A stretch of DNA of 64,000 bases, taken from Rosa chinensis (lineage: Eukaryota > Streptophyta > Magnoliopsida > Rosales > Rosaceae). Location of the stretch: positions 16,950,001 to 17,014,000 of the forward strand of contig NC_037094.1 in the NCBI RefSeq assembly GCF_002994745.2, read 5' to 3'. Made by a program: the position numbers and the translations under genes. The notes under the pieces were generated by a model. The model was given only the letters and a program-made list of their open reading frames with translations. It was not told the origin of the DNA and ran no database searches. Every line of letters starts with the position of its first letter. Within the stretch, counting starts at the first letter, position 1. Below, piece by piece: positions 8,272 through 62,043 of the stretch.

Positions 8272-10202
8272 ATTAATAAAGGGAGAGGATCCTCTCCTGA
8301 GCACACTATTGACCTGAGCTTCTTGAGTTTTGAAGCAGATGACGACACGTGGATTTATCAAAATCTAACGGTCTATGATTCTTCTTTTCCTTCAGTCACT
8401 TCATTCTTTCCTTCCTCTCTCTTCTGTTTTCCCTTTCCTTCTCTACTCTGATTACCACCAATTGAATCCCAAACCCAAATTGAAGTCACCTTCCTCAAAA
8501 CACCATTCTTCGGTCAATTCAAGTACTTGGGCATCAACACAGTCCTAATAGCTGAGCAAACTTTGAGTACTAGTTTATGACCAGTCGATATCCCTAACCC
8601 GGATCTTTTCGAAACGAGCTGGAGCAGGTCGCCAGTAGCTAACCTCCACAAATAAACGGTGACTCTTGATAGGAGCATTTTAATGCAACATTTCAAGTGT
8701 TATTGCTTCATATTTACTTAGTTATTTCCTTAAATAAATCCTTTTGGTTTAGGAAAGTTTCTATTTCCTATTTTTAGAAAATTTCCAGTTCTTATTTGTA
8801 GAAAGTTTCTATTTTCCATTTTTAGGAAGTTTCTATTTTTAGTAATAGTTTATATTTTCAGGTCCTTGGAGCAAACAAGCTGAACTGAGCTCAAGAGAGG
8901 AAAGACGAGCTAGTCGACGTTGGAGGGAGCTAAGACAAGACATAAAGGGCTGCATAAATGAGCTAAAATGAAGTTTTCCAGTTTCAACCAGGAAATCTTG
9001 TTCAGAAGAGGAAATTTTGTCAAGCAAGACTCCTGAGCCAACCAAAAAGCATGATCGAAATAATAAAGGGAAATGACGTTGAGAGAAGATTCCTGGAGGC
9101 ACTAGGAGACTATAAGGCTTGAAGATGATGCAAGGAGGCCCAAGATCCTTCTAGACTATTGTGGATTTCAGCAAATGGATAAAAGCCCATTGGAATTAGG
9201 GTTTGTGATGCATGAGAGATATTCTTGGAGGATTTATATGTTTTGCTGTGAAATACAAAGAGAAAATGGGTGGAGACAATGTGAAAATCAAGAAGAAAAT
9301 CAAAGATCACGTTGGAGATTTTATAGGGAGAGTTTTAAGGAAAGATGAAGTGTGTGCAACAAGAAAAAGGTCTGAAACAAGTCTAGATTCGTTCGCTACT
9401 TTCTCTCAAGATATTTTGGGCAAAAATAAGATAGAAAATCAGAATATATTCATGGAAATTTGGCAACAATATATTAGGGACTTACATGGCAATTTGTGAT
9501 TGGTCGGAGTTATGTGGCATTTTCAGATAATTCCTTGGGAAAATAATAGAAGATTCATGAAGCTTGGAGAGCACTTTGCCGTCCCCTATATATACTCCCC
9601 TATAGCTTGACGTTAGACATACCCTCTTCATTCAGAAAATTCTCCCATAAACGTAAAAGCTCTCTCCATTCTCTAGTTCAAGTCTGCGTTTTCAAGAAAG
9701 GGAGGACGAAAGAAGAAGAAGCCGTGAGCATCCCTCCATAATCCACCTTGAAGCCGTGAGTTTTGAAGCTTGCTTCCAAGATTCAATAGTTCAACGTTCA
9801 AGTTCTTCATCCCCATCTCCATTCACGGTATAATTTAACATTTTCCTTGTAACCTCTTTTGGTTTTCGTATGAAACCTTGTTTGAATTCGTATGAACATG
9901 TTCTAGTTAACATATAACGTTTAGGGCAAAGTTTAAGCCGAATTTCTATGATTAAATAAAGTTTTCGATTCCTATACTGTGATTCTAAGTTGCTTTTGTG
10001 AGATTGTTCAATTGAATTTACTTGATTGATATCTTTTATATGTTTATTCTAATTGGTTCGAAACTTTTAGGATTTTTGTATAATTGGTGCTAGATTTAAG
10101 TTAATGCTTCACCTAATAGTTTTGTGAACTTAAATCAAAAGTAGTAAAGGTTTTGGATAAAAATCGAATTCAATTGAAAAGAATTTCAAATAGATGAATT
10201 TA

Positions 10203-11451
10203 GAATTAAATACTTGTTACTCCTCAAATTTTTCCCTAAAAAACAGTTTAGTCCCTCACCTTTCAAATTAAATTGGATAGTCCTTATTCTTTCTAATTCT
10301 CACTCAACATGTCTAAAATGACTATTATATCCCTGAGATCCTTTTTTTTAAATATTTTTTCTCTCATTTTTTAATTTTTCTCTCTTTTTAAAAAAATTTT
10401 TTCTGGTTTTCTCTCTCTCTCTCTCTCCAAGTTCTTATCCACTCGATCCGCCGCACTCACTACCACTCTGCAGCGCTTGACAGGCCCCCTCCTCCCCTCA
10501 TGGAAGCTCCGCCGCCACAATTCCATCTCCACCTCCATTGTCGTCCCCACTAAGCTTAGCCACCTCTCCTCCTCCTCATCCTCCACCACACCCACCAATA
10601 AGCCCCGCTAGAACTGCAGCTTCCCAACCTAAAACTCCTCCTCCTCCTCGTCCTCTCCCCCAATCCCTCCACCGATTCCTCCTCCTCCTCCTCCCCCAAC
10701 CATGACTTCCCCGCCATCCACCACTTCCTCTCCTCCCAAGAAATCGCCGCCACCCTCTCCCTCCTCTCCCTCTCCCCCAAATGCAAGCGGGCCCGTCTCG
10801 ACTCCTCCGAGCCCACTCCCCCGGCCCAACTCAGCCTCCCTCTCCCTCGCATTCCCGACTCCTTCAAGACCTCTTTCCGAATGACCTCCTCAACCTTCGA
10901 GTGGCTCTGCTCCTTGCTCGTGCCCTTACTCGAGTGCAGGGACCCGATTGGCTCCTCGCTCAATCTCTCCGCCAACCTCCGCCTTGGAATTGACCTGTTT
11001 CACCTGGCCAACGGAGCCAATTACCCGGAGATATCAAGACAATTCCGGATTTCAGAGTTTGTGTCGAGATTTTGCTCCAAGCAATTGTGTCGTGTTCTCT
11101 GCACTAACTACCGGTTCTGGATTGAGTTTTTGAATAAGACTGAGTTTGAATCGGTGTCTTCGAAACCCACACAGGGTTGCCCAATTGCTGCGGTGTGATT
11201 GACTATACCCGGTTCAATTTTGTGAGAAGTAATGGGAAGGGAGAGAGAAAAGTTAAAAAAAAATAAAAAATAAAAAAAGAGAGAAAAAAAAAATTAAAAA
11301 AGGATCTCGGGGGTATAATAGTCATTTTAGACCTGTTTTGGACCTGTTGTGTGAGAATTAGAAAGAATAAAGACTATCCAGTTTAATTTGAAAGTCGAGG
11401 GACTAAACTGTTTTTCAAGGAAAAGTTTGAGGAGTAATTAGTATTTAATCC
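10203..11451. mobile_element. Second MULE nested in solo LTR A, carrying a gene fragment (Pack-MULE-2)
   Basis: Inverted repeats of about 140 bp, starting G(A/G)ATTAAATACT, lie at 10203-10345 and 11305-11451. The 9-bp target duplication is ATGAATTTA (10194-10202) and ATGAACTTA (11452-11460), with one mismatch. The undisturbed site is visible in the related palindrome arm near 60085 (AGATGAACTTTTTCATATTAGG-like context). The ends differ from Pack-MULE-1 but match the terminal word of the 485-bp foldback at 58044, so these two belong to one MULE family. The cargo is an ALP1-like fragment. Confidence 0.88.
10500..11230 (+). pseudogene. ALP1/HARBI1-like gene fragment inside Pack-MULE-2
   Basis: From ATG 10500 one frame reads, through a few stops before 10690, into an open stretch (10698-11198). 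It has HHFLSSQEIAATLSLLSLSP, then SFRMTSSTFEWLC (10881), LSANLRLGIDLFHLANGANY and FCSKQLCRVLCTNYRFW. This matches the N-terminal half of plant ALP1-like nucleases. A frameshift near 11165-11175 ends the frame, and the shifted frame goes on with LPNCCGVIDYTRF, the segment with the first conserved Asp of the family. The rest of the catalytic domain is missing. It is a different paralogue from the fragment in Pack-MULE-1. GC- and C-rich codon use contrasts with the AT-rich surroundings, as expected of captured gene sequence. Confidence 0.78.
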
Positions 11452-12612
11452 ATGAACTTATTTATACTAGGTTGTGCACTTAAGTTAATAACCTTTCTCT
11501 ATGTGTATTGCGTTGAACCTGTTTTGATTAGCTAGCTTTCTAGACTTTGATTGCATGTTTAATAGGATTAATCTAGGTTCTTTCACTTAGGTTAATTAGT
11601 AAAGGAAAGTAAAATATGGAAAATCATTCGCTTCAAATGTTTTACATGATCAACTTCTTTCTCATGACTTAGATGATCAATTATAGGGTTCTAATCGAAT
11701 TTGATTATATGGAATTGGTTTTGATCTTTGTTCCTTACGTTCTACTTTTGTATATGTGTTTTTATATTTTCTTTGTTTTGTTTATTTTATTTTTTGAAAA
11801 GCTAAGTCTAAACCCCCCTTAATTTCGTTACTTGTATATATTCTTGTAAATATTATACTTTATTTTTATTTTAATTCTTTATTTGTTTTACAATGACAGG
11901 TGTATCCTCAATCCCCTGATTTGAACGATTCCTATTTACTATGTACTGACGATGATATTTTCAGGGTTAAATTATACGCTTACTTTTATCGTATCAACTC
12001 TCTACCGAATAGAAATTACATTCCGGAGAGTGGTGTCCTCTTTCACTATAGCTGAATTGAGCTCGTCGCAGATCAAATCGAACGTGGCCTTCCCCATCCG
12101 GAAGGCTTTTTTGAATTCGTCTTCCGAGAAATCGGGTAGTACTCGACGTCCAATTAGTAGCCCTGCAAATCGGAAGTAGTGCTCCACCATCACTTGGACT
12201 CTTAAACCCAAATTCTACTCATCAATTGAATCTCAACCCAACTCATCCATTGAATCTTAGTCCCAGAGTAAACATGAAAGATTGCTGGACCTTAAATTGA
12301 TGGGAAATGGAAGAAAAAAGAACTATTTAGAGCGGGAGATGATAGCTTAGATGTGGCAAAATAGACATTTAAAATAGAGAGAGGTTTTGTCATAAGATTA
12401 GATGAAATTTGATAAGGAGTGAAGAAGAACAAGAGAGAGAATAACGTGCAGTGAAGGAAAGGGAAAACAGAAGAGAGAGGAAGGAAAGAATGAAGTGACT
12501 GAAGGAAAAGAAGAATCATAGACCGTTAGATTTGATAAATCCACGTGTCGTCACCTGCTTCAAAGCTCAGGTCAATAATGAGCTCAGGAGAGGATCCTCT
12601 CCCATTAATAAA

Positions 12613-18668: not shown

Positions 18669-18927
18669 TGAAGAGCGTTGTCCAAGTCTTTAGGGTTTGT
18701 TTTTCAGTTGAATAAAGACATGATCCTTAGGATCAGGTTATGCTTTGAATTATTTTTGTTTTCTGTTAAAGCACGTGGCTGCATGTAGCCGATACGTGAG
18801 CATGTTTTCAGTTTAGTTTCTTAGAGTATCAGGCTATATAATAGCCAGAGTTATAATTGAATACGTATTGATTGCATTCAATCTAGTTTAGAGAGTTTTA
18901 GTGTGTTGCAAGTTCTCATTCCTAACA
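18669..18927 (+). repeat. Left LTR of Copia-2
   Basis: It runs from TGAAGAGCGTTG to CCTAACA. A TATA-like GGCTATATAATAG lies near 18832. It aligns along its full length with 23868-24125. Confidence 0.95.
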
Positions 18928-18930
18928 AAG

Positions 18931-18942
18931 TGGTATCAGAGC
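18931..18942 (+). other. Primer-binding site of Copia-2
   Basis: TGGTATCAGAGC is complementary to the 3' end of plant initiator Met-tRNA, the usual Copia primer. It lies three bases after the LTR. Confidence 0.9.
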
Positions 18943-19003
18943 CCCCACTGGGCCTGAGAATAGAGTAAAGTCGCAGCTTAGAGAGGGAAACACAGAGAGA
19001 GAG

Positions 19004-22000
19004 ATGAGTGAGGATAAAAGTTATACAAAAATCCCTCATTTTGATGGCGTCCACTATGACCATTGGGGAGAGCTGATGGAAAACTTCCTCAGATCGAAGG
19101 GATTATGGAGCCTTATAGAGAATGGTTTCGAGGAACCAAAAGCTGGAACAGGGTTGATAGATGCGCAGCTATCGTTGTTGGATGATGCAAGGACCAAGGA
19201 TCACAAGGTGAAGCACTACCTGTACCAGGCCATTGGCAGAGTCACTTTCGAGCAAATTCTGGACAGACACAACTCAAAGGCTGTCTGGGACTCACTGAAG
19301 AGGAAATTTGGTGGGAATGCTCGAGTTAAGAGGTCTCTTCTTCAAGCTTTGAGAAGAGACTTTGAGGTGTTGGAGATGAAGAAAAGCAAGACAATCACTG
19401 AATATTTTGCTAGGGTCATGGTTGTGGCAAACAAAATGAGGAGCAATGGTGAAACCATGCCGGATTCCAAAGTGGTAGAGAAGATCTTGAGAACGTTGAC
19501 TGAGAGATTCACCTATGTAGTGGTGTCCATCGAGGAGTCGAAGGACATAGACACCCTCTCAATTGATGAGCTGTAGAGTTCACTGGTGGTTCATGAGCAG
19601 AAGTTCCACAGGCTGAATCAAGAAGAAGAAGAAGATCAGGCCTTGAAGATTGAAGATCGAGCTGACGCTAGAGGTTGGGGGAGAGAAACTCTCAGAGGAA
19701 GAGGTCGAGGGAAAGGACGACAGTCCTTCAATCATGGTTCAAAAAATCGCTAGGCGCTAGTCGAGCAGTGGTCAGGGGACTAGCGCCCAGAAGCCTAGGC
19801 GGGGTACCTAGGCGGTTTTTATTTTTTTATTTTTATAACATATAATTATATAAATATAAAAATATAAAGACTTATAGGGTAAAAATATTTATTAAAAATA
19901 CTCAAAGTAGTCCATGGTTTTATATTGAAGTAGAAAACTAGTAATTTTAATGAATAACTTAACAAATAAGCAGCATAATGGATGAGTTTAAACATCTCGC
20001 AGCATAGTTTTATGTACCGTGAACCTTTTTCTTTTGCATTGATCAATTGAATAGATAAAAAAAATGGAGCAACTAATAATTGTTTGATATAAATAACTAT
20101 TTCTTTTTGGGTGTGGTGCAGTAGTGCAGGCTATCATGGTAGCCCACTCATTTTTTTATTCATATATTTTCATTAACTGACAAAAGGACACATACGTGTC
20201 CCACTTGTTTTTAATTAAACACTTCTAAGTTTGTCGTTTTGACTTTTGAGATTAGTTCATCTTCTTCAGTTTCAACCCAGTTCGTCTCACAGACCAGAGG
20301 GCTATCCAACCTTAATTCTTTCTTAACCATGAAAAAAACGCCCAAAGCCCACCTAGCCAACTGTGTAGCGCCTAGTCGCCCGCCTAGGTCGCTTGAACGG
20401 CCGCCCAACCTTAACCCGCCCAAAAGCTCCAATTTGACACTACTCGAGTCGGAGAGCCGACGCCCAGCTCCTAGGCGCCGCTTAGGCGGCCGAGTTTTAG
20501 AACACTACCTTCAATAGAGCAACAGTAGAATGCTTTAAGTGTCACAATCTTGGACACTTTCATTACGAATGTCTGAAGTGGAACAAAGAGGCCAATTATG
20601 CGCAGCTTGATGAAGAAGATGAGCTGCTCCTAATGTCATATGTGGAGATGCATGAGGCAAAGAGGAGCGATGCTTGGTTCCTAGATTCTGGGTGCTCAAA
20701 TCATATGTGTGGTGATCGAGGTATGTTTTTGATTTTGGATGTTAGTTTTACACATTCAGTCAAGCTTGGAAATAACATTAGGATGAGTGCGGTTGGGAAG
20801 GGAAGTATAAGACTAGTGTTCAATGGTGCTGCCTTTGTTGTTGGAGATGTGTATTATGTTCCAGATCTTAGGAACAATCTTTTTAGCATTGGGCAGCTAC
20901 AGGAAAAGGGTTTGGCAATCATGATCCGAGATGGAGCATGCAGCATTTACCATCCACAAAGAGGGCTGATTGTGTACACCCTGATGAGTGCTAATCGTAT
21001 GTTCATCATCCTGAATGAAGCTTCAGCCTCTACAAAATCTCTCCCTCGACTAGAAGAACGTTTTCATACAAGCTCCTCGGATTTGACACACCTGTGGCAC
21101 TAGAGGTATGGACACTTGAGTCATAAGGGGCTGAGGACATTACAATTCAGGAAAATGGTGCATGGTCTACCTCAGTTTAAAGCTTCACAGGTTATTTGTA
21201 CCGATTGCTTCAATGGCAAGCAACACAGGAATGCCATTCCAAAAAGAAGTTTGTGGAGAGCAAGTCAAGTACTGGAGCTGATTCATGCAGACATTTGCGG
21301 GCCAATCTCCCCTACATCCAACAGTGGAAAAAGGTACACTTTATGTTTTATAGATGACTTTAGTCGAAAATCATGGGTGTACCTTCTGCTTGAGAAGTCA
21401 GAAGCACTATATTGTTTTAAGAAATTCAAGAAGTTGGTGGAAAAAGAAGCAGAAGTGTCTATCAAGTGCCTAAGGACTGACAGGGAAGGAGAATTCACAT
21501 CACATGAATTCAATATATTTTGCAAAGAGCATGGAATCAAGAGGCATCTCACTACTGCATATACGCCACAACAAAATGGCGTCGACGAGAGGAAAAATAG
21601 AACAGTGATGAACATGGAATGCTCCATGTTATCTGCCAAGAAGATGCCGAAGTCTTTTTGGCCTGAAGCAGTGGTTTGGACGTTCTATGTTTTGAATCGG
21701 TGCCCTACTTTAGCCGTGAAAGAAGTCACACCACAAGAGGCATGGAATGGTGTTAAACCATCTATTGATCACTTTCGAGTTTGGGGCTGCGTTGCACATG
21801 TCCACATCCCAGAAGCAAAACGAGGTAAATTAGATAATAAAATTTTTCCTTGTATCTTATTGGGAGTCAGTGAAGAATGTAAAGGTTATAGGCTATTTGA
21901 TCTGAAAACAAAAAGGTGGTTGTGAGTAAAGATGTTGTTTTTGAGGAAGATAAGCAATGGGATTGGGGTGAAAAATATGAGGACCAAATTAGGTCAGAGT

Positions 22001-23834
22001 TGGTTTGGGGTGATGATGGTGAGTTCAGTGATGAAGAAAATGAGGGAGAGAATAGAGGTGATGTTGGTGACGATAATGTTGAGGTGAATGGTGAAAGACA
22101 AGATGGAGAAAACTCTAGTGAAGCAATTGGGAGCACTAGCGAGGTCAATGGCAATGAGGGTAGAGAAGTAGGTCACTTTGAGGGTAGCTTAGTTGAAGGG
22201 AGAGAAAGAATACCACCATACTGGACAGAAGATTATGTGAGTGGTGAGGGTCTAAGTGAAGAAGAGGAGGCAATGTATCTGGTACAAAATGCAGCGGAAG
22301 AAGATCCCACCTTATTTGAAGATGCTATAAGAGAAGATAAATGGAGAAAAGCCATGGATAACGAGATCAACTCCATCAAGAAGAACAAAACATGGGTTCT
22401 AACTCAATTGCCGGCAGGAGCTAAGAAAGTTGGTGTCAAATGGATTTACAAAACAAAACGTGATGAGCATGGTGAAGTTGTCAAGCATAAGGCTCGTCTA
22501 GTAGCTAAGGGGTATTCACAAAGAGAAGGCATTGATTATTCAGAAGTATTTGCACCAGTGGCAAGGTTAGATACAGTGAGAACCATCATTGCTCTAGCAG
22601 CTCAAAAGAAGTGGAGAATTTTTCAATTAGACGTCAAATCAACAATTCTTCATGGAGACTTGAATGAGAAGGTTTATGTAGAACAACCTAGAGGATATGA
22701 GAAGAAGGGAAAGGAGCATATGGTTTATAAATTATACAAAGCCTTGTAAGGTTTAAAACAAGCTCCCCGAGCTTGGTTCAGCCGCATTGAAGCATACTTT
22801 GTCAATGAAGGTTTTCAGAGATGTGAAAGTGAGCAAACTTTGTTCACTAAGAGGAGCAACAAAGGCAAAATCATCATTATAAGTTTATATGTTGATGATT
22901 TGATTTTTACTGGTGATGATGCTAATCTGTTGCTTGAATTCAAGACTTCCATGATGAGAGAATTTGATATGACTGATATGGGGAGCATGAGTTATTTTCT
23001 TGGGATAGAAGTGATACAAAAACCAGGAGGGAATTTTATCTTTCAAAGAAGATATGTGTTGAAAAGGTTTGGAATGATGGGGAGCAACATGGTTACCAGA
23101 CCAATTGTGCCGGGGTCCAAGATAGGGAGAGATAAGTATGGTGTCACAGTTGATGAAACTGACTACAAACAGCTTGTAGGAAGTTTAATGTACCTAACTT
23201 CTACACGGCCTGATCTGATGTTTGTTACAACTCTACTAAGCATATATATGGCAAAACCCAATGAACTTCACTTGCAGGCTGCCAAGAGAGTCCTCAGGTA
23301 TCTAAAAGGCACAGTAGACTACGACATTTACTACAAGAATGAAGGTGGTGACAAGCTAATGGCATTCACTGATAGTGGTTATGCCGGAGACATGGAGGAC
23401 AGCAAGAGTACGAGTGGATATGTTTTTTTGTTAAGCTCAGGAGCCATCTCATGGAGTTCGAAGAAACAACCAATTGTGACCCTGTCAACAACTGAGGCAA
23501 AATTTGTTGCAGCAACAATGTGTGTGTGCCAAGCAATTTGGTTGAAGAGGATAGTGAAGGAGCTCGGGCATGAAGAAGAGGACTGTACCTACATCAAATA
23601 TGACAACACGTCCACCATTAAACTTTCAAAGAACCAGTGTTACATGGACGCAGCAAGCACATACGTGTGAGGTACCATTTTCTTAGAGATCTCACAAAAG
23701 AAGGTTCAATTGCTTTGGTTCATTGTGGAAGTACTGAACAAGTAGCTGACATAATGACTAAACCTTTAAAGTCTGAAACATTCATTAAACTCCGGAGCAT
23801 GCTGGGAATGTGTGAAGTTAGTAAAGTAAGCTAA
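19004..23834 (+). pseudogene. Copia-2 gag-pol, broken
   Basis: Gag starts at ATG 19004 and meets TAG at 19574. The zinc knuckle CX2CX4HX4C is at 20531-20572 beyond the nested hAT, and protease DSG is near 20682. TAG at 21101 breaks the pre-integrase region. Integrase core residues are present (HADICGP near 21285, D near 21479, E in NGVDERKNR near 21587). A frameshift lies near 21915 in an A-run. Reverse transcriptase has YVDD at 22888-22899, with TAA at 22747 inside the LYGLKQ motif. RNase H is at 23366-23670 with a frameshift near 23635; the end of the frame (RYHFLRD ... MTKPL) continues to 23834. It is not functional. Confidence 0.93.
19733..20507. mobile_element. Non-autonomous hAT element nested in Copia-2 gag
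   Basis: A perfect 8-bp target duplication CCTTCAAT lies at 19725-19732 and 20508-20515. The ends are CATGGTTCAAAA and TTTTAGAACACTA (imperfect inverted ends of the CAGTGTTCTAAAA kind). Subterminal CTAGGCG/CGCCTAG words are repeated at both ends. The 775 bp encode no transposase. Gag resumes in the same frame beyond it, which confirms the insertion. Confidence 0.9.
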
Positions 23835-23867
23835 ATTGATTCACTGAATTTAGCTTAAGGGAGAGAT

Positions 23868-24125
23868 TGAAGAGCGTTGTCCAAGTCTTTACGGTTTGTT
23901 ATTCAGTTGAATAAAGACCTGGTCCTTAGGATTAGGTTATGCTTCGAATTAGTTTTGTTTTCTGTTAAAGCACGTGGCTGCATGTAGCCGATACGTGAGC
24001 ATGTTTTCAGTTTAGTTTGTTAGAGTCTGAGGCTATATAATAGCCAGAGTTATAATTGAATATGTATTGATTGCATTCAATCCAGTTTAGAGAGTTTAGT
24101 GTGTTGCAAGTTCTCATTCCTAACA
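23868..24125 (+). repeat. Right LTR of Copia-2
   Basis: It starts TGAAGAGCG after the polypurine tract and ends CCTAACA before the target duplicate CTTAA. Divergence from the left LTR is about 4%. Confidence 0.95.
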
Positions 24126-33466: not shown

Positions 33467-33986
33467 TGTTAGAACTAAATGGACCTATCATCATCTATTA
33501 TGCAGAATGCAAATTGGATTATAACTTGATTCATTAATAGGAGTTGTAAGCTAAGTACAATACCTAGAAACCTATTGAGATAATTATATCAACTCATTGG
33601 TTAGGAATCCATTAGTTGGTTTACATAGTAATCCAATTTAGTGTTGCATTAGGTTTTCTAATTGTTGGTGACTTGGTTTCTAAGAAACATCTTTATGGGA
33701 GGATTCTTAGGAACATGGCCAATATATATAGGAGTGTTGGTCCCTGCTCTCTCTGTTACAAAGCATTAAGTCCTGCCCCATAGAAAGGAGCTTGAATCCA
33801 GAGCTGAGGAGAAGATCAATCTGCGTTTGTTGTCAAGTTCGTTAGTGCTACTGCAATGGCTCCTAATACTGAAGAAGGTCAGTACATAAACTTTGTATTT
33901 TGGTTCATGTGGTCTTGATTAATATACAGTGTGTTTATGTATTTGTGAATTGATCATGGATTTGGTTTTGCTCATTCAGTCTAACA
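33467..33986 (+). repeat. Left LTR of Copia-3
   Basis: It starts TGTTAGAACTAAAT and ends CAGTCTAACA. It carries ATG 33856 followed after 22 bases by a splice-donor-like G/GTCAGT (33878), relevant to the gag intron. A TATA-like CCAATATATATAGG lies near 33719. Confidence 0.97.
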
Positions 33987-35279
33987 AATTGGTATCAGAG
34001 CTTCAGGTTTTCACAAACATAAATCAATTTTGATTAATTAATTTTTGGAAGAACCAAAATTTTATTTTCAACAAAAAAAAAATTTATAGAAAAATTGTTC
34101 TAAACCTTGCTAAAGAAAAGGGCCACGAGTGGGCCAGTTTTTAGAAAAATCTTTTCGGCCCAAAACCGGCAGGCGCTGACCCGGACCCAATCCCATTTAA
34201 AACCCTGCTACAGATGACCGTTATACTCTAACGGTCATATACGTTTGGGGATTAGGGTTCTTCGTCTGGGATTGAAAGCGCAGAGGATGTTCATATCCTC
34301 TATGGAATTCAAGACTCCAATCACTGCGGATTAAGGGGCCGAACTGATCGACTGCTGTTTTGGGTAAAAATTCATGCTTCCGCGATAAAGTTTTGCAGCA
34401 AATTAAGAAGAACAAGGTTAGAATTTTCTGGAAATTTTGGGTTTTTTAAATTAGAATATTTTGATCATCGTAATATGCAAGAACAATAGAGGCATTCCCG
34501 GCGTGCACCTAGGCTAGAGTAGATGGTGACCGGATGAAACTTAATTTTCTGAATTTGTTTTGTGATGTGATGGTTTCTGGGATGAGCATGAAATTGAATA
34601 TCCTGATGTTTGTGATATGATTGTTTATATGTTGTGAAATTTCTATAATTGATGATCTGCAATGGTATAATGTGACATGTGATTAAGTCGATCTCCCTGT
34701 GCATGCTTGTTATGCTAAAAAGTTGCAGATTGAAAGAAAATTTTTCATGGTCTAAGAATTTAAATGGTTAAGTGGATATGTTGCACAAAGTGATTATCTG
34801 CTTGTTATTCAAAATTCATTAAGATAAAGAAAAGATCAGAAACTTGTGTTTTACTTTTAAACTATGTATGCATATTGTCTTCCAAAGAAGTTTGAGCTAT
34901 ATGATTTAAAAGTGGAACAGCATTATGCATAATTTTGAGTTCAATTTTGGATTCTAGGGACTTTTCTTCTGTCATAAAGATGTTGATTGTCTTTAGAATA
35001 ATATGAATTCACTGCTTGTGGCATAATGATTGAGGAACCTCCAGAATATCATGTTTTCTGCTATAAAAGTGATGCTTGATATTGACTGCAGAATTGGGGC
35101 CAATAATTGCATTATTTGCTTTTTGGTATTGTTTTGTTTTGTTAAATGTTTTGTTTTCTGTTTGTGTGTTTGCTTGAACTGCTTTAGAATCAACACATGA
35201 ATGCAGAACCTTTTTGACAAAACTTGTTTTGAGAACTGATAAAACTAAAACTTACACTTTTCCTTGTTTTGCTCTCTAG
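33878..35279 (+). other. Putative intron joining an LTR start codon to gag
   Basis: The donor G/GTCAGT is at 33877-33883 and a pyrimidine-rich acceptor TTTTGCTCTCTAG ends at 35279. Removing 33878-35279 puts ATG 33856 in the same frame as gag, whose open frame spans the acceptor. Without splicing, the first gag ATG would be 35291, some 1.3 kb past the PBS. The splice is inferred from sequence only. Confidence 0.55.
33990..34001 (+). other. Primer-binding site of Copia-3
   Basis: TGGTATCAGAGC, of the initiator Met-tRNA type, lies three bases after the LTR. Confidence 0.92.
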
Positions 35280-38200
35280 GAATCACCTACATGAATTTGA
35301 ACAATATCCAGATGCTTACTGGATCAAACTTTAAGGCCTGGAAGAGTGGTGTAGAGTTCTACCTAATGATGCATGACAACATGGATTTGTGTTTTACTGA
35401 TATAGAGCCTTATGGAGTAGATGCAACTAGCTCATCCGATGACAAGAAATATTATCGAGACTGGCATAGGTCTAATTATAGGGCTAAGAATGTAATGAGA
35501 ACTACCATGTCTGATACTGTGAGGGGTAGTATTGAAGAGCCTGTTTTGGCAGTTGACTATATGGAAGCAATAGCTGAAAAATTCAAGGAAAGCAATAAGG
35601 CAGAGGCAGCTAGACTTTCCAAGGAGATGAATGAGTTGAAGTATACTGGTAGTGGGGGTGTTAGGCAGCATATCTTGAAGCTCACTGAGCTTAACACTAG
35701 GCTCAGGGATTTAGATCTGGGAGTCAAGGATGACCAACTTGTCCACAATGCCTTAGATTCTCTACCATCTAGCTTCAATACCTTAAGAACTAGCTACAAT
35801 GCACAGAAGGAGAGCTGGACCTTGAATGAGCTTATAGCTATTTGAGTGGATGAGGAGAGTAGAATGAAGAAAGAGAAGCAGCCCTCCACCTCTGTCAATT
35901 TAGTTGAAAAGCCAAAGAAACAGAACAAATTCAAGCCTAAGAAAACTATAGCCAAGCCATCAGGGAATACTGCAGCAGCTAAAGTCAACAAGCCATTTAA
36001 GTTCAAGTGCTATTTTTGTAAGAAAGTAGGACACATGAAGAAGGACTGTACAGGATTTAAGGCATGGCTTGTGAAAAAGGGTAAGATTGATTTATTTGAT
36101 CATTTAGAAACTTTTTCATTAGAAGTTAATTTTGTTAACATTGAACCTCATTCTTATTGGTTAGATAGCGGCAGTCCCTTACACATTACAAACTCTTTGC
36201 AGGGATTCATAGGGATGAGGAAGCCAAGAAGTGATGAAGCTAACATCTGCGTTGGAAATGGAATGAGGGTTGCAGTCAAGGCAGTAGGATCTTTAAGACT
36301 AGATTTGGGATTAGGAAATTTTCTGGTTTTAGATAGTGTTTATTACATTCCCTCAATTAAGAGGAATTTGCTTTCAGTTAGTCTTTTGGTTAAAAGTGGA
36401 TGTAATTTTTACATTGGTTCTGATGGAATAAAAATTTTCAAGGATTCTCTTGATTTCTTGCCTAAAGATTATTCTATTTTTGGTTCTGGTGATATTGTGA
36501 ATGATTATTTAAGATTGAATTGTTCATTAGGTCAACAAGAAACTTTACTTGTTGAAAACAACAATAACACATCAAGTATAAATACCATTACTGGTGTAAA
36601 AAGAATTCTGCATAATGAAAAATCTGCATACTTGTGGCACAGGAGACTTGGCCACATATCCAAAGATAGAATGAAAGTACTCGTGAAAAATAAAACACTT
36701 CCAAAATTGAACTTTGATGATCTTGAAAATTGTATTGAATGCTATAAAGGAAAAATGACAAACTTAAGAAAGAAAAATGCCAACAGAAGCAAGAAACTGT
36801 TGGAATTAATCCATACAGATATATGTGGACCATTTAGACATAAGAAAATATGTGGAAATATCTATTTACTGTCAAAAGTATGCTACCTGGAAAAATCGTC
36901 TATAGCTACATCTACTTACTGTCAAAAAAATCACAATCACTTGAAGCTTTTAAAATTTTCAAAACTGAGGTTGAACATCAACTGGATTTGAAAATTAAGG
37001 TTGTGAGGTCTGATAGAGGGGGAGAGTTTTATGGCAAATATACTGAGCAAGGACAACAAAATGGTCCTTTTGCATTATATCTGCAAAGTGTAGGCATTAA
37101 GGCTCAGTATACAACACCATATAATCCCCAACAAAATGGGGTAGCTGAGAGGAAAAATAGAACTCTATTAAACATGGTAAGAAGTATGATGTGTACTTCA
37201 GGATTGCCAAAGATGTTTTGGAGAGAAGCCTTAAGAACTGCAAATTACCTTTGCAACAGATCCCCAAGCAAAGCTGTAGATAAAACACCATTTGAATTAT
37301 GGTGTGGTAGGCAACCAAGTTTACACCATTGTCATGTCTGGGGATGTAAAGCTGAAGCAAGGATTTATAATCCGAATTTAGGAAAGCTTGATCCAAAGTC
37401 TGTAACTTGTCACTTTATTGGTTACTGTGAAAAGTCTAAAGGCTATAAGCTTTATTCACCTCATCATTCACCCAGAGTTTTTGAAACTCATCAAGTTAAA
37501 TTTTTAGGTGAAAGTGTCTGCAATACAAACTTTGAAGACTTGTCCTCAGATTTCGAAGAAATTGTAGATAATGTGGATAATATAGCAGTAATGCCAAGCA
37601 TTCAAAATAATTTATTTAACTCAGGATTGGCTCAAAATCAAAATCTAGTCGAAGGTCAAAATGCTGTAGATGATAATTTAGAGGCCAATGAACTTAATTC
37701 TGAAATGGCTGAGTTTGACTTAGGACAGGAGCAAGAGCAAGTGACTCAACCTGAACCTCAAAATGAACCACAACCTGAACCTCAACCTCAACCTCAAACT
37801 GAGCCACAACAAAACCAAGTTGTGGTACCAAGAAGGTCACAGAGAGTAAGGAAACCAAGGTTTGGAGGGGAGGATGATATTTATGAAGTTTATTTAAGTG
37901 AAGTAGAATCTGCATTATCTGATGACAATGATCCCACTAGTTTTAAACAAGCAACTGGAGGTAATGATTCTGATGCTTGGACTCAAGCTATGGTTGCAGA
38001 GCTTGATTCAATGTGTAAAAATGGAGTATGGGAGCTTGTGAAGCCAAAAGAAAATCACAAGCCTATTGGCTGCAAGTGGGTTTTTAAAACCAAGAGAGAT
38101 GTCAGTGGAAACATAGAGAGATATAAAGCTAGACTAGTTGCTAAAGGTTTCACACAGAAGGAAGGAATAGATTTTACAGAAACCTTCTCACATGTTTCAA

Positions 38201-39516
38201 CTAAAGATTCATTTAGAATCATAATGGCTGTAGTAGCTCATTATGACATGGAATTACATCAAATGGATGTAAAAACAGCCTTCTTGAATGGGGAGCTGGA
38301 GGAAGAAATATTCATGGTACAACCTGAAGGTTTTATTGAGGCAGGGAAAGAGAATATGGTCTGTAGGCTTAAGAAATCCATTTATGGACTCAAACAAGCT
38401 AGTAGGCAGTGGTATAAGAAATTTGACTCAGTGGTTTCATCTTTTGGTTTTACTGAAAATCTTGTCGATGAGTGTGTATATCTTAAAGTTGTTGGAAACA
38501 ATTTTATCTTTCTTATCCTATATGTAGATGATATTCTTCTTGCTAGCAGTAATGTAAAATTGCTGAAAGATACTAAGGCTTTCTTGTCAAGTAACTTTGA
38601 CATGAAGGATCTGGGAGAAGCATCATATGTGTTAGGAATTGAGATTAAGAGAGATAGAAAGCAGGGATTGTTGGGATTATCTCAACAAAATTATATTTCA
38701 AAAATTCTGAAAAGATTTGGAATGGAAACCTGTGCTAATGGTGAAGTTCCAATGTCTAAGGGAGATAAACTAACTAAAAATCAGTGTCCTAAAACTGATA
38801 TTGAGAAAACTGAGATGGAATCGATACCATATGCTAGGCTAGTAGGGAGTTTGATGTATGCACAAGTCTGTTCAAGACCAGACTTGTCTTTTGCAGTAGG
38901 TATGCTATCCAGATTTCAGTCAAATCCTGGACATGAGCATTGGACAGCTAGCAAAAAGGTTCTAAGGTACCTGCAAAGGACCAAAGGCCATATGCTTGTG
39001 TATAAACGTGTGAAAAAGCTTGAATTGGTTGGCTTTACTGATTCTGACTTTGCTGGGAATTATCCTACATCTATGAATTCGACTTGTGGTTATGTTTATA
39101 TGCTAGCAGGTGGTGCAGTAGCTTGGAAAACAATGAAGCAGTCATTGATAGCTACTTCCACCATGCAGGCAGAGTTGATAGCTATATATGAAGGAGTGTG
39201 TGAGGGGTTATGGATCAGAAATTTTATTTTGGAGACTAAAGTGTTGAGTGATCTTGTTACTGGAAATTTGAAGGTGTTTTGTGATAATGAGGCTGCAGTG
39301 TTTTTCAGTAAGAATAGTAAGAGATCAAATAACTCTAAGCACATAGATTTAAAATTCTATAGTATCAGAAAGAGAGTTAAAGATGGTGAAGCTGAGATTT
39401 CTGGAGTCAAGACAAGTGATCAACTGGCAGATCCATTTACTAAAGCATTGTCAGTAGCAGCCTTTAAGGAGCATTCCAGGAACATGGGAATTCTGTCGAG
39501 TTTTGAAGATGCATAA
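35280..39516 (+). pseudogene. Copia-3 gag-pol, almost intact
   Basis: Gag (35280-35842) meets TGA at 35843, where the surrounding frame continues. The zinc knuckle CX2CX4HX4C is at about 36008-36049 and protease LDSG near 36165. The pre-integrase motif LWHRRLGH follows. Integrase D, D and E are all present (HTDICGPF near 36812, RSDRGGEF near 37007, NGVAERKNR near 37135). Between the first two, 36850-36930 is scrambled, with a repeated TTACTGTCAAAA word and a frame change. From there one 888-codon frame runs to 39516 through reverse transcriptase (YVDDILL, 38521-38541) and RNase H (FTDSDFAGNY near 39033). One stop and one damaged stretch would block a full polyprotein. Confidence 0.92.
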
Positions 39517-40113
39517 GTTCAGTGGGAGCAAAATGTTTTGAGAAAATTGTTTCTTCAGTTTAGTTTTGTTTTGGTTTAGTTCTTGATTTTCTGTTTTGAA
39601 CTATGTAACAGAAACCTTGTACTTCATGGTTGATTTAATGAAATGAGGTATTTTTCAGTTAATGTTTTGACAGCTTTATTTATTTATTTTTGGTAGCTGT
39701 ACAGTTTATCAGTTCAGTTCAGTTCAAGTGGATTGTTTTATATATGCATATATACAGTTAGAAGCAAACATTGATCCACTGTGTGTAAAGAAATTGTGTT
39801 TGCGTTGTGATTTTGATATTCAAAATACTTAGGTTGGACTGTTATCAAATAACAACTGCAGTTTGATATATGATGTTATTTGATTGCATCACATTAAGTT
39901 TGAACTCATGTGAAGTACAGAAATTGTTGTTTTGTGGTCTGGAACGAGTATGCTCATTTGAACATATCTATTTCTTGATTCTGCAATGGTTCTGCATTTT
40001 GACAGAGTTGAATGGATTTACAGTACACTTACATCTCAGTGCACACTTCAACTATTTCTGGAAATTGTTTTAATTCAGTTTGTGAATAGACAATGATGGT
40101 CCAAGTGGGAGAA

Positions 40114-40633
40114 TGTTAGAACTAAATAGACCTATCATCATCTATTATGCAGAATGCAAATTGGATTATAACTTGATTCATTAATAGGAGTTGTAAGCTA
40201 AGTACAATACCTAGAAACCTATTGAGATAATTATATCAACTCATTGGTTAGGAATCCATTAGTTGGTTTACATAGTAATCCGATTTAGTGTTGCATTAGG
40301 TTTTCTAATTGTTGGTGACTTGGTTTCTAAGAAACATCTTTATGGGAGGATTCTTAGGAACATGGCCAATATATATAGGAGTGTTGGTCCCTGCTCTCTC
40401 TGTTACAAAGCATTAAGTTCTGCCCCATAGAAAGGAGCTTGAATCCAGAGCTGAGGAGAAGATCAATCTGCGTTTGTTGTCAAGTTCGTTAATGCTACTG
40501 CAATGGCTCCTAATACTGAAGAAGGTCAGTACATAAACTTTGTATTTTGGTTCATGTGGTCTTGATTAATATACAGTGTGTTTATGTATTTGTGAATTGA
40601 TCATGGATTTGGTTTTGCTCATTCAGTCTAACA
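40114..40633 (+). repeat. Right LTR of Copia-3
   Basis: It has the same length as the left LTR, with about four substitutions, and ends CTAACA before ATTAC. Confidence 0.97.
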
Positions 40634-40638
40634 ATTAC

Positions 40639-58043: not shown

Positions 58044-58528
58044 GGACTAAATACTGTTTAGTTCTTGAGCTTTTGATCATAAAACACTTCAGTCCCTGAC
58101 CTTCCAATTTCACATGTTTAGTCCCTGTACTTCAAAATTTCAGACCAATAGGTCCTTGCCGACTAAAAGTCGCGGCGAAATATCTATTATGCCCTCAGTT
58201 CTTTTTTTAAATAAATTTATTCCTTTATCTTTTTTTATTTTTTCTTTTTTCTTTTTTTTATTCTTTTTTTTCAAACATAAAGAAAGAAAGGGAAAAAAAA
58301 ACATAAAGAAAGAAAGGTAAAAAAAATTCCTTTTCCAAACAAAATTTAAAAAATTAATTAATTAAAAAAAAAACTGAGGGTATAATAGACATTTCACCGC
58401 GATTTTTAAACGGCAATGACCTATTGGTCTGAAATTTTGAAGTATAGGGACTAAACGTGTGAAATTAGAAGATCAGAGACTGAAATGTTTTATGGTCAAA
58501 AGCTCAAGGACTAAACAGTATTTAATCC
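58044..58528. mobile_element. Foldback MULE/MITE, 485 bp
   Basis: A perfect 9-bp target duplication TATTTTTAT lies at 58035-58043 and 58529-58537. The inverted arms of about 150 bp start GGA(C/T)TAAATACTGTTTAG. The same terminal word occurs in Pack-MULE-2 (10203-11451), but here there is no cargo, only A/T-rich sequence between the arms. Confidence 0.92.
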
Positions 58529-59318
58529 TATTTTTATCTACCAACGTGGGTACTACCACAACTTCTTGATCTGTCTGGAAAGAAGGCAACATGAAGGTAT
58601 TGATAGGAGCATTTTAATGCGACGTTTTAACTGCTTTTCCCTACATTTTTCTGCGCCATTTCCTTAGAAAATCCCTGTTTTGGAAAGTTTCCATTCTTCG
58701 ATTGGGAAAGTTCCTATTTGTAGAAAGTTTCTATTTTGTAGTTTCTATTTTTCATTTTTAGAAAGTTTCCATTTTCAGTTTAGGAAAGTTTCTATTTTTC
58801 TTATTAGTTTCTATTTTCAGGACCTCCGAGCAAAAAAGTGGAAATGAACTCATAAATGGAAAGAGGAGCTTGCGAACACCAAGGGGAGCAAAGATGAAGG
58901 TACATTGGAGTAGATGAAGGTGAAATGTACTAAAAGATCAATTTTACACATATTCCTACTCCGAGGAGAAACCAAGCCAAGCAAAGAAGAATGAGCGGCC
59001 GCCTGATCAAATGAACTTCAAATGAGCTGAAACCTTCCAGATCCATTCTAGACACCCAAAGGAACATTTCATATGAAGAGTGCAAGATCCAGATAGAAGT
59101 GGAAGGCCTTCAAACAATCAGTCCAATTTTCTGCAGAAGCAAAACTGGAAAACTGGACCTGTAAGAGGTCCAGCAGCATTTCCGGCCCAACCACATGACA
59201 ATAAATTCTGAAATTTTACCACAGTAATCTACACTCATGGTGGATAATTTCATATGAAGAAGTCGAAGGCTAAATCTGACTTCTTAGTGGAGATAAAAAT
59301 TAAAGGAATAAAGGAGCA

Positions 59319-59440
59319 GAAAGTGCTCTCACCTAACAAATCCACCAAGTGTTTAAGTGCTCTCACCTAACAAATCCACCAAGTGTTTAAGTGCTCTCAC
59401 CTAAAAAATCCACCAAGTGTTTAAGTGCTCAAACCTAACC
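59319..59440 (+). repeat. 34-bp tandem repeat in the left palindrome arm
   Basis: Units of GTGCTCTCACCTAACAAATC-CACCAAGTGTTTAA are repeated three times, plus a partial fourth. They are mirrored at about 61194-61315 in the right arm. Confidence 0.9.
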
Positions 59441-61193
59441 CATTATGATTTGTTTAAAGGCCAAATAGTGTTGCTTGGAAGCCTATAAATAGAGGCAAAA
59501 ACAAAGACACATACATTCCTTCATCTATTCCATCTTCTTTATCTCTCCATTTCCTCTCCATATTTCTTTTTCATTCTCTAGATTTCTTGTTCTTCATTTT
59601 CAAGCCAAGAGAAAGAGAAGCCATGCAATACATCAATTTCCTAACCGCCATCCACCCTTGTGTCGTCCCTAGAAGATTGCTTGCTTTCAAGGATCTTCAA
59701 GTTCTTCGTCTCAAGGCTTTATCATTCATCTTTCAAGGTGTATTATGTCATTTCTCTTGTTTTCTTTGTTTGATTTTGTAAGACTATGAATTCTAGTTAA
59801 CAAATAATGTTAAGGGCAAAGTTTAAAGCTCGTTTATATGTTTTGAAATAAAGTTGTAATTTCTTTGTGTTGATTTCTATGTTGCTTATGTGAGATTGCT
59901 TAATTGATTTTGGTTTATAGAAAACTTTTATATGTATGTGTTCTTTGGTGGCCAACTTGGGATATATGCATGTAATTGGTGCTAGAATTAGGTAAACAAT
60001 TCACCTAATAGTTTTGTGAACCTATTTCATAAGTAGTAAAGGCTTTGGACAAAAGTCGAAATCAATTAAGGAGGATTGCAAATAGATGAACTTTTTCATA
60101 TTAGGTTGTGCATTTTGGTTGACATCCTTTCTTTATTCTTCATGCATTGAATGTGTTCTTGATGAGCTAGCTTTCTAGACTATGATTGCATGTTCAATAG
60201 GATTGATTTAGGTGCCTTCACTTAGATCAATTATTCAAGAAAAGTAAAATATGGGAAATCGTTTGCTTATTAACGTTTCACATGGTCAACTTATTTCTCA
60301 TGTCTCAGCATATAGTTGATTATCTAATGTCATGAGAAATAAGTTGACCATGTGAAACGTTAATAAGCAAACGATTTCCCATATTTTACTTTTCTTGAAT
60401 AATTGATCTAAGTGAAGGCACCTAAATCAATCCTATTGAACATGCAATCATAGTCTAGAAAGCTAGCTAATCAAGAACACATTCAATGCATGAAGAACAA
60501 AGAAAGGATGTCAACCAAAGTGCACAACCTAGTATGAAAAAGTTCATCTATTTGCAATCCTCCTTAATTGATTTTGACTTTTGTCCAAAGCCTTTACTAC
60601 TTATGAAATAGGTTCACAAAACTATTAGGTGAATTGTTTACCTAATTCTAGTACCAATTACATGCATATATCCCAAGTTGGCCACCAAAGAACACATACA
60701 TATAAAAGTTTTCTATAAACCAAAATCAATTAAGCAATTTCACATAAGCAACATAGAAATCAACACAAAGAAATTACAACTTTATTTCAAAACATATAAA
60801 TGGGCTTTAAACTTTGCCCTTAACATTATTTGTTAACTAGAATTCATAGTCTTACAAAATCAAACAAAGAAAACAAGAGAAATGATATAATACACCTTGA
60901 AAGATGAATGATAAAGCCTTGAGACGAAGAACTTGAAGATCCTTGAAAGCAAGCAATCTTCTAGGGACGACACAAGGGTGGATGGCGGTTAGGAAATTGA
61001 TGTATTGCATGGCTTCTCTTTCTCTTGGCTTGAAAATGAAGAACAAGAAATCTAGAGAATGAAAAAGAAATATGGAGAGGAAATGGAGAGATAAAGAAGA
61101 TGGAATAGATGAAGGAATGTATGTGTCTTTGTTTTTGCCTCTATTTATAGGCTTCCAAGCAACACTATTTGGCCTTTAAACAAATCATAATGG

Positions 61194-61315
61194 GTTAGGT
61201 TTGAGCACTTAAACACTTAGTGGATTTTTTAGGTGAGAGCACTTAAACACTTGGTGGATTTGTTAGGTGAGAGCACTTAAACACTTGGTGGATTTGTTAG
61301 GTGAGAGCACTTTCT
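61194..61315 (-). repeat. 34-bp tandem repeat in the right palindrome arm
   Basis: The inverted counterpart of 59319-59440, with one or two base changes. Confidence 0.9.
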
Positions 61316-62043
61316 GCTCCTTTATTCCTTTAATTTTTATCTCCACTAAGAAGTCAGATTTAGCCTTCGACTTCTTCATATGAAATTATCCACCATGAGT
61401 GTAGATTACTGTGGTAAAATTTCAGAATTTATTGCCATGTGGTTGGGCCGGAAATGCTGCTGGACCTCTTACAGGTCCAGTTTTCCAGTTTTGCTTCTGC
61501 AGAAAATTGGACTGATTGTTTGAAGGTCTTCCACTTCTATCTGGATCTTGCACTCTTCATATGAAATGTTCCTTTGGGTGTCTAGAATGGATCTGGAAGG
61601 TTTCAGCTCATTTGAAGTTCATTTGATCAGGCGGCCGCTCATTCTTCTTTGCTTGGCTTGGTTTCTCCTCGGAGTAGGAATATGTGTAAAATTGATCTTT
61701 TAGTACATTTCACCTTCATCTACTCCAATGTACCTTCATCTTTGCTCCCCTTGGTGTTCGCAAGCTCCTCTTTCCATTTATGAGTTCATTTCCACTTTTT
61801 TGCTCGGAGGTCCTGAAAATAGAAACTAATAAGAAAAATAGAAACTTTCCTAAACTGAAAATGGAAACTTTCTAAAAATGAAAAATAGAAACTACAAAAT
61901 AGAAACTTTCTACAAATAGGAACTTTCCCAATCGAAGAATGGAAACTTTCCAAAACAGGGATTTTCTAAGGAAATGGCGCAGAAAAATGTAGGGAAAAGC
62001 AGTTAAAACGTCGCATTAAAATGCTCCTATCAGGTATGTAATG

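Follow-up and report, generated by a model that had tools for sequence, protein, structure and literature searches.

Organization of the palindromic locus

The window, a 64,000-nt stretch of Rosa chinensis DNA (C7:16950001-17014000), lies on a 70-Mb contig of a 515-Mb assembly. An inverted-repeat search of the window finds, at 58601-62032, two inverted arms of 1,702 nt each that are 99% alike and separated by a spacer of 28 nt. Alignment of the arms with each other gives 13 substitutions, 12 of which are transitions, and no gaps. The outer ends read TGATAG...CTATCA, which places the U3 end of a long terminal repeat (LTR) at both sides. At the left border the flank ends in ...AAGGTAT and the arm begins with TGATAGG, while at the right border the arm ends in ...CCTATCA and the flank begins with GGTATGTAATG. 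The pentamer GGTAT is thus exact at both flanks and encloses both arms; random agreement of five flanking bases is expected in about 1 of 1,024 cases. The features of the locus are as follows.

58596..58600, + strand: target-site duplication GGTAT, left copy (sequence, alignment)
58601..60302, + strand: left arm, LTR positions 1-1702, U3 end outermost, TGATAGGAGC (arm alignment; genome relatives)
59484..59492, + strand: TATA-box-like TATAAATAG in the left arm, putative (sequence; inference)
60303..60310, no strand: filler of 8 nt, TCTCAGCA, which reads TGCTGAGA on the minus strand (comparison of LTR relatives)
60311..60330, - strand: LTR positions 1703-1722, on the right-arm side only (alignment to LTR relatives)
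60331..62032, - strand: right arm, LTR positions 1-1702 reversed, U3 end outermost (arm alignment)
61141-61149, - strand: mirror copy of the TATA-box-like sequence, putative (sequence; inference)
62033..62037, + strand: target-site duplication GGTAT, right copy (sequence, alignment)

Both arms correspond to the first ~1.7 kb of an LTR of ~2.0 kb, and the last ~310 bp of U5 are absent. The initial annotation had described arms of 1.70 kb, a 28-base spacer, TG...CA ends and a GGTAT duplication, all of which were reproduced by the repeat search and alignment. Its reading of both outer ends as the same LTR start agrees with the U3 ends seen at the two sides, and its statement that the LTR runs on naturally into the spacer is borne out on the right-arm side, which follows the LTR to position 1722. 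Immediately to the left of the palindrome, at 58044-58528, is an imperfect inverted repeat (~80%) that is probably an unrelated foldback MITE.

The LTR family and its target-site duplications

The arms belong to a large LTR family. Among 40 scored candidates of 7,624, at least 89 matches to the arm were found, and the 20-base U3 start occurs in 5,476 genome copies with two or fewer mismatches. LTR length ranges from 1,942 to 2,272 bp in the 34 LTRs for which both ends were found. An exact 5-bp duplication flanks 16 of these 34, and a duplication with one mismatch flanks 3 more. Since 5-bp duplications are typical of the family, GGTAT is of the family's own duplication type. Some LTR copies are preceded by a polypurine tract (PPT, a label assigned in this analysis), TGTGGGGGAATT, and others are followed by a short spacer and then a primer-binding site (PBS), TTGGCGCCGTTG. 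A PPT or PBS adjoins 13 of the 34 LTRs, which are therefore parts of longer elements, and two of the 34 (L026 and L039) fit neither class. The PBS type, TTTTGGCGCCGTTGCCGGGG, suggests a possible placement in the Tat/Athila branch of Ty3/gypsy.

Several members of the family are mosaics. From LTR position ~909-915 onward, L020, L021, L022, L024 and L025 are ~98% identical to the window arm, and upstream of this point they are about 83-89% identical to it, a pattern suggestive of a template switch at the R start during reverse transcription. In the window arm R likewise probably starts at LTR position ~909-915. The U3-start patterns were also compared with viral and bacterial collections, which gave no matches in one search and a single match in another, to a Staphylococcus contig, which was taken as chance.

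A related solo LTR is present in the window at 8667..11996 (+), flanked by the duplication ACTCT at 8662-8666 and 11997-12001. It is interrupted at ~10205-11451 by a nested insertion with inverted ends of ~190 bp that are 83% identical (CTCCTCAAA and TTTGAGGAG), and this insertion is probably the remnant of a DNA transposon.

Arm differences and age of the window palindrome

At all 13 sites where the arms differ, one arm agrees with all four of the closest relatives (L010-L013) and the other arm departs from them, with 8 changes in the left arm and 5 in the right. The assignment at site 814, which sits in a tandem repeat, is less secure. The arms have in common 8 of 1,652 sites that are absent from all four relatives. 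Differences that are private to one arm relative to these LTRs fit arms that were identical at the start. The left-arm states at 1147, 1230 and 1535 also occur in other LTR subfamilies; these were taken as recurrent transitions and could be older variation. Because several differing states occur in other subfamilies, we infer rather than observe that the arms were identical at birth. Divergence between the arms (K2P) is 0.0077, which at plant substitution rates of 1.3e-8 and 6.5e-9 corresponds to an age of ~0.3-0.6 million years.

The turn of the window palindrome

The right arm and spacer match the LTR up to position 1722 (...CAACTATA), after which come TGCTGAGA and then the opposite arm from position 1702 (CATGAGAAATAAG), so that the two turn points are 20 nt apart within a 1.7-kb arm. 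The initial annotation had proposed that a cDNA strand primed itself here through six bases, CATGAG pairing with CTCATG. Comparison with the relatives does not sustain this proposal. All 40 LTR rows, which represent 39 distinct LTRs (L030 duplicates one LTR of L017, and L044 had no match), continue past the turn as GGAATTG... or the variants CGAATTG, TGAATTG and GGGTTTGAATC. In none of the 40 rows does TGCTGAGACATGAG follow the turn position, and CATGAG is absent there from all 39 distinct LTRs; in the window these six bases are just the first ones of the opposite arm. Since the relatives lack CATGAG after the turn, there is no sign that the parent strand offered a six-base primer. Only L023 carries a TATATG variant, and the filler would be 6 nt if an LTR of this type were the parent.

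A source for the filler was sought in the arm and in the U5 tail of L011, where no piece of 6-8 nt was found; matches in the arm are limited to 5-mers. Folding of the window turn as single-stranded DNA gives a z of -1.66, and 9 of 200 shuffled sequences fold equally well. The relatives offer no 3' end at the window turn that is complementary to upstream sequence, and what the turn does display is a pair of nearly coincident ends with filler between them. With its filler, the window turn looks more like end joining.

A second palindrome on C1

A complete palindrome of 4,300 bp with two U3 ends lies at C1:17885768-17890067, with TTGAC at both flanks. Outside the loop the two arms are identical at all but 2 of 2,139 sites. 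The turn is located at the U5 end and reads ...GGGTTAAATT-ATATGCTTGCTTTGAGCGTATC-AATTTAACCC..., in which the LTR end is followed by ATTT, the first bases of the U5-PBS spacer, and then directly by the opposite arm with no filler. L062, a PBS-linked relative that shares this U5 end, continues instead as ATTTTTCGG. At the turn (C1:17887902-17887936) the plus strand ends in a 3' tail, AATTT, that can pair with AAATT immediately ahead of the terminal stem. This stem, with the tail paired, folds under DNA or RNA folding parameters in 7 of 9 PBS-linked LTR rows (6 of 8 distinct LTRs), while in the other two distinct LTRs, L029 and L046, the stem does not hold the tail. With five base pairs and no filler, the C1 turn is compatible with self-priming or with two strands that primed one another.

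Comparison of the two junctions for short inverted words, which the initial annotation had recommended, thus gave AATTT/AAATT at C1 and no corresponding primer in the relatives of the window turn. The broader claim that a strand turned back before integration remains the best explanation and gains a second case, in which the clean signature of self-priming is found at the U5 end on C1 and not in the window.

Survey for further U3-U3 palindromes

The C1 palindrome emerged from a survey for inverted pairs of this LTR flanked by 5-bp duplications, a search that the initial annotation had also advised. Three overlapping lists of ~100 U3 starts each, out of 5,476, were examined and pairs were matched by eye. 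The C1 starts, 17885768 (+) and 17890067 (-), form the one outward-facing pair less than 5 kb apart among about the first 100 of the 5,476. Among the matches in the second list (~100 of 606) were both starts of the window pair and one of the two C1 starts, and those in the third (~100 of 546) included no outward-facing pair under 5 kb. Clean U3-U3 palindromes among the matches listed are thus only two, and on these two cases the product appears to be recurrent but rare. Copies with a more diverged U3 start are missed by such lists, as illustrated by L067, which was met only through the C1-turn pattern. That pattern, with two or fewer mismatches, has 16 matches, of which one is exact (C1 itself) and none is a further clean case; among the other 15, L063 has an inverted match around the turn, and L052, L055 and L059 have inverted matches elsewhere.

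As a control, nine other outward-facing LTR pairs, 12.6-45 kb apart, were chosen by eye from the three lists. None of the nine agrees in the five flanking bases, and in all nine a PPT adjoins at least one of the two LTRs. Two further outward-facing pairs, L067 (4.0 kb) and one on C4 (9.3 kb), have no common flanking duplication. The L067 pair (C1:21457702/21461676) consists of nested solo LTRs with their own duplications, ATTAA and TTTAC.

Other candidates were likewise set aside. The U3 ends at C2:52737836/52738101 (L020) face inwards and were read as separate insertions; between these two LTR insertions, L020 1838-2100 (C2:52737837-52738099) resembles, by eye, the coat-protein region of a caulimovirid (plant pararetrovirus). 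At C5:48726562-48730780 (L070) the U3s face each other with a polypurine tract between them and ~95% identity, which was read as a nested insertion, and at C7:53483063 (L063/L066) an inverted match of 87% lies near a C1-type turn in a complex locus where no common duplication was found. The structure at C4:25339802-25349074 (L017, L030, L031) has only one free U3 end and was not counted. Its arms are 4.5 kb long, 99.0% identical and ~220 nt apart, and they hold an LTR, a PBS, a leader and the start of an open frame. Its right end is a U3 end and its left LTR is preceded by a PPT and internal sequence. Near the turn the right arm has ~20 bases that are absent from the left arm, which a simple snap-back does not account for, and the whole structure appears by eye to sit within another, oppositely oriented element, flanked by gag-like and protease-like frames of the latter.

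Origin of the palindromes

We consider it probable, at about two chances in three, that the palindromes arose from aberrant cDNA in which a strong-stop plus strand turned back and was copied to the U3 start, giving a linear palindrome that was inserted through two U3 ends. Such a process would begin with plus-strand strong-stop DNA (U3-R-U5) initiated at the polypurine tract of an LTR retrotransposon. This strand would turn back on itself, or pair tail to tail with a second such strand, and copying back to the U3 start would yield a linear palindrome with a U3 end at each side. Integrase would then treat the two U3 ends like a usual pair in processing and insertion, which would generate the family's 5-bp duplication. 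With the U3 ends outward and the turn in U5 or just past it, the turning strand is most simply the plus strand, and the window junction with its filler may be a non-canonical turn of the C1-like kind. Counting against this mechanism is that self-priming yields a hairpin with a single U3 end, and no step giving the two observed is in evidence. Conversion to a two-ended duplex could occur if copied-in PPT RNA re-primed synthesis with strand displacement; alternatively, and more simply, the self-complementary U5 end might allow two strands to serve as primers for one another. Both the strand involved and this conversion are proposed rather than observed.

Alternatively, integrase could have inserted the U3 ends of two separate truncated cDNAs whose inner ends were then sealed with filler by host end joining, a known parallel being the inverted repeats of T-DNA in plants. 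The 8-nt filler and lack of microhomology at the window turn speak for such joining. Inner ends at 1702 and 1722 would, however, have to fall within 20 nt of each other by coincidence, which we estimate at ~2%. The arm differences are also compatible with a common start, and filler is absent from the C1 turn, so we regard this origin as unlikely. Less probable still is that a normal solo LTR came first and that a later template switch during replication or repair made a backward copy of the left arm. Genomes often contain fold-back inversions with short spacers, and because TGAT at the LTR start and ATCA at its end form a short inverted repeat, a four-base return at the LTR end via ATCA is possible. 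At each of the two loci, however, that return would have had to hit the boundary of the LTR precisely and leave the duplication undamaged, in two independent events. The genome does contain nested solo LTRs in inverted orientation, as at L067, yet such independent insertions, whether nested or adjacent, carry their own duplications (ATTAA and TTTAC at L067), whereas in the window one duplication encloses both arms. A fold-back artefact of assembly would be expected to mirror the flanks as well and to lack arm-private mutations, and the presence of such mutations argues against it. Two opposite insertions or an assembly artefact are, together, very improbable sources of the window palindrome.

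Comparison with known elements and reverse transcription products

The window palindrome has the TG...CA ends and the duplication of the family's fixed length that mark insertion by an LTR-retrotransposon integrase. Like a solo LTR it consists of sequence of the LTR family with a 5-bp duplication and no internal region. A solo LTR has a U3 and a U5 end in one orientation, whereas the palindrome has two U3 ends and no U5 end, which sets it apart from complete and solo LTR elements alike. TRIM and LARD elements have direct LTRs with a PBS and polypurine tract between them, and here 28 nt separate inverted arms. Foldback and Mutator-like TIR transposons make duplications of ~9 bp and have TIRs that are not related to LTRs; the duplication here is 5 bp, and the arms consist of LTR sequence, to which many ordinary LTRs are related. 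DIRS-like elements have inverted terminal repeats, no target duplication and a tyrosine recombinase. The window palindrome has a duplication, and with only 28 nt between its arms there is no room for a recombinase gene.

Template-switch LTR complexes with three LTRs and two internal regions in normal direct order were described by Sabot & Schulman 2007 (PMC1950507). These complexes resemble the window palindrome in being an aberrant product of reverse transcription, present as a single insertion whose outer LTRs are nearly identical and which has one 5-bp duplication, but in the palindrome the arms are inverted, there is no internal region and both ends are U3. For HIV-1 minus-strand strong-stop DNA, PMC4668388 treats TAR-dependent self-priming as established, with heterogeneous DNAs as products. 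There, as in the mechanism proposed here, a stem-loop lets strong-stop DNA prime itself; the HIV-1 case concerns the minus strand and the R region, while the proposal concerns the plus strand and the U5 end, with integration of the product. Autointegration, as covered in PMC4751563, yields circles with inverted LTRs when linear Ty DNA inserts into itself. As proposed for the palindrome, the inverted LTRs of these circles form before chromosomal insertion, but the window palindrome is chromosomal and has a target duplication. Among the titles and abstract openings listed for the open-licence literature, none reports integration of a U3-U3 or inverted-LTR palindrome, the available portion of PMC12789967 contains nothing on U3-U3 palindrome integration, and the older subscription retrovirology literature could hold such a case.

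Possible consequences for the family

A more tentative suggestion, which we hold to be possible though not favored, is that a hairpin at the family's U5 end folds or pairs the strong-stop plus strand and so gives rise repeatedly to U3-U3 palindromes that integrase takes up like its usual substrates, which would constitute an undescribed insertion class and a natural source of hairpin RNA. If this is true, transcription from the LTR promoter would produce ~790 bp of RNA stem, which could silence the family via small RNAs. The window palindrome itself is evidence from a genome that the integrase of a plant LTR retrotransposon can use two U3 ends for a complete insertion with target-site duplication in vivo, and that self-primed side products of reverse transcription are not always lost. 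It also offers a possible natural origin for LTR hairpin loci that feed small-RNA silencing. The signature, in which a single LTR's U3 start stands at each outer end within one common 5-bp duplication, can be searched for in any genome.

Other elements in the window

Two copia elements are also present in the window. The younger, at 33467-40634, has direct repeats of 521 bp (99.2%) around Ty1/copia frames for GAG-pre-integrase, integrase and RVT_2, and the older, at 18669-24125, has direct repeats of 259 bp (95%) around broken copia frames.
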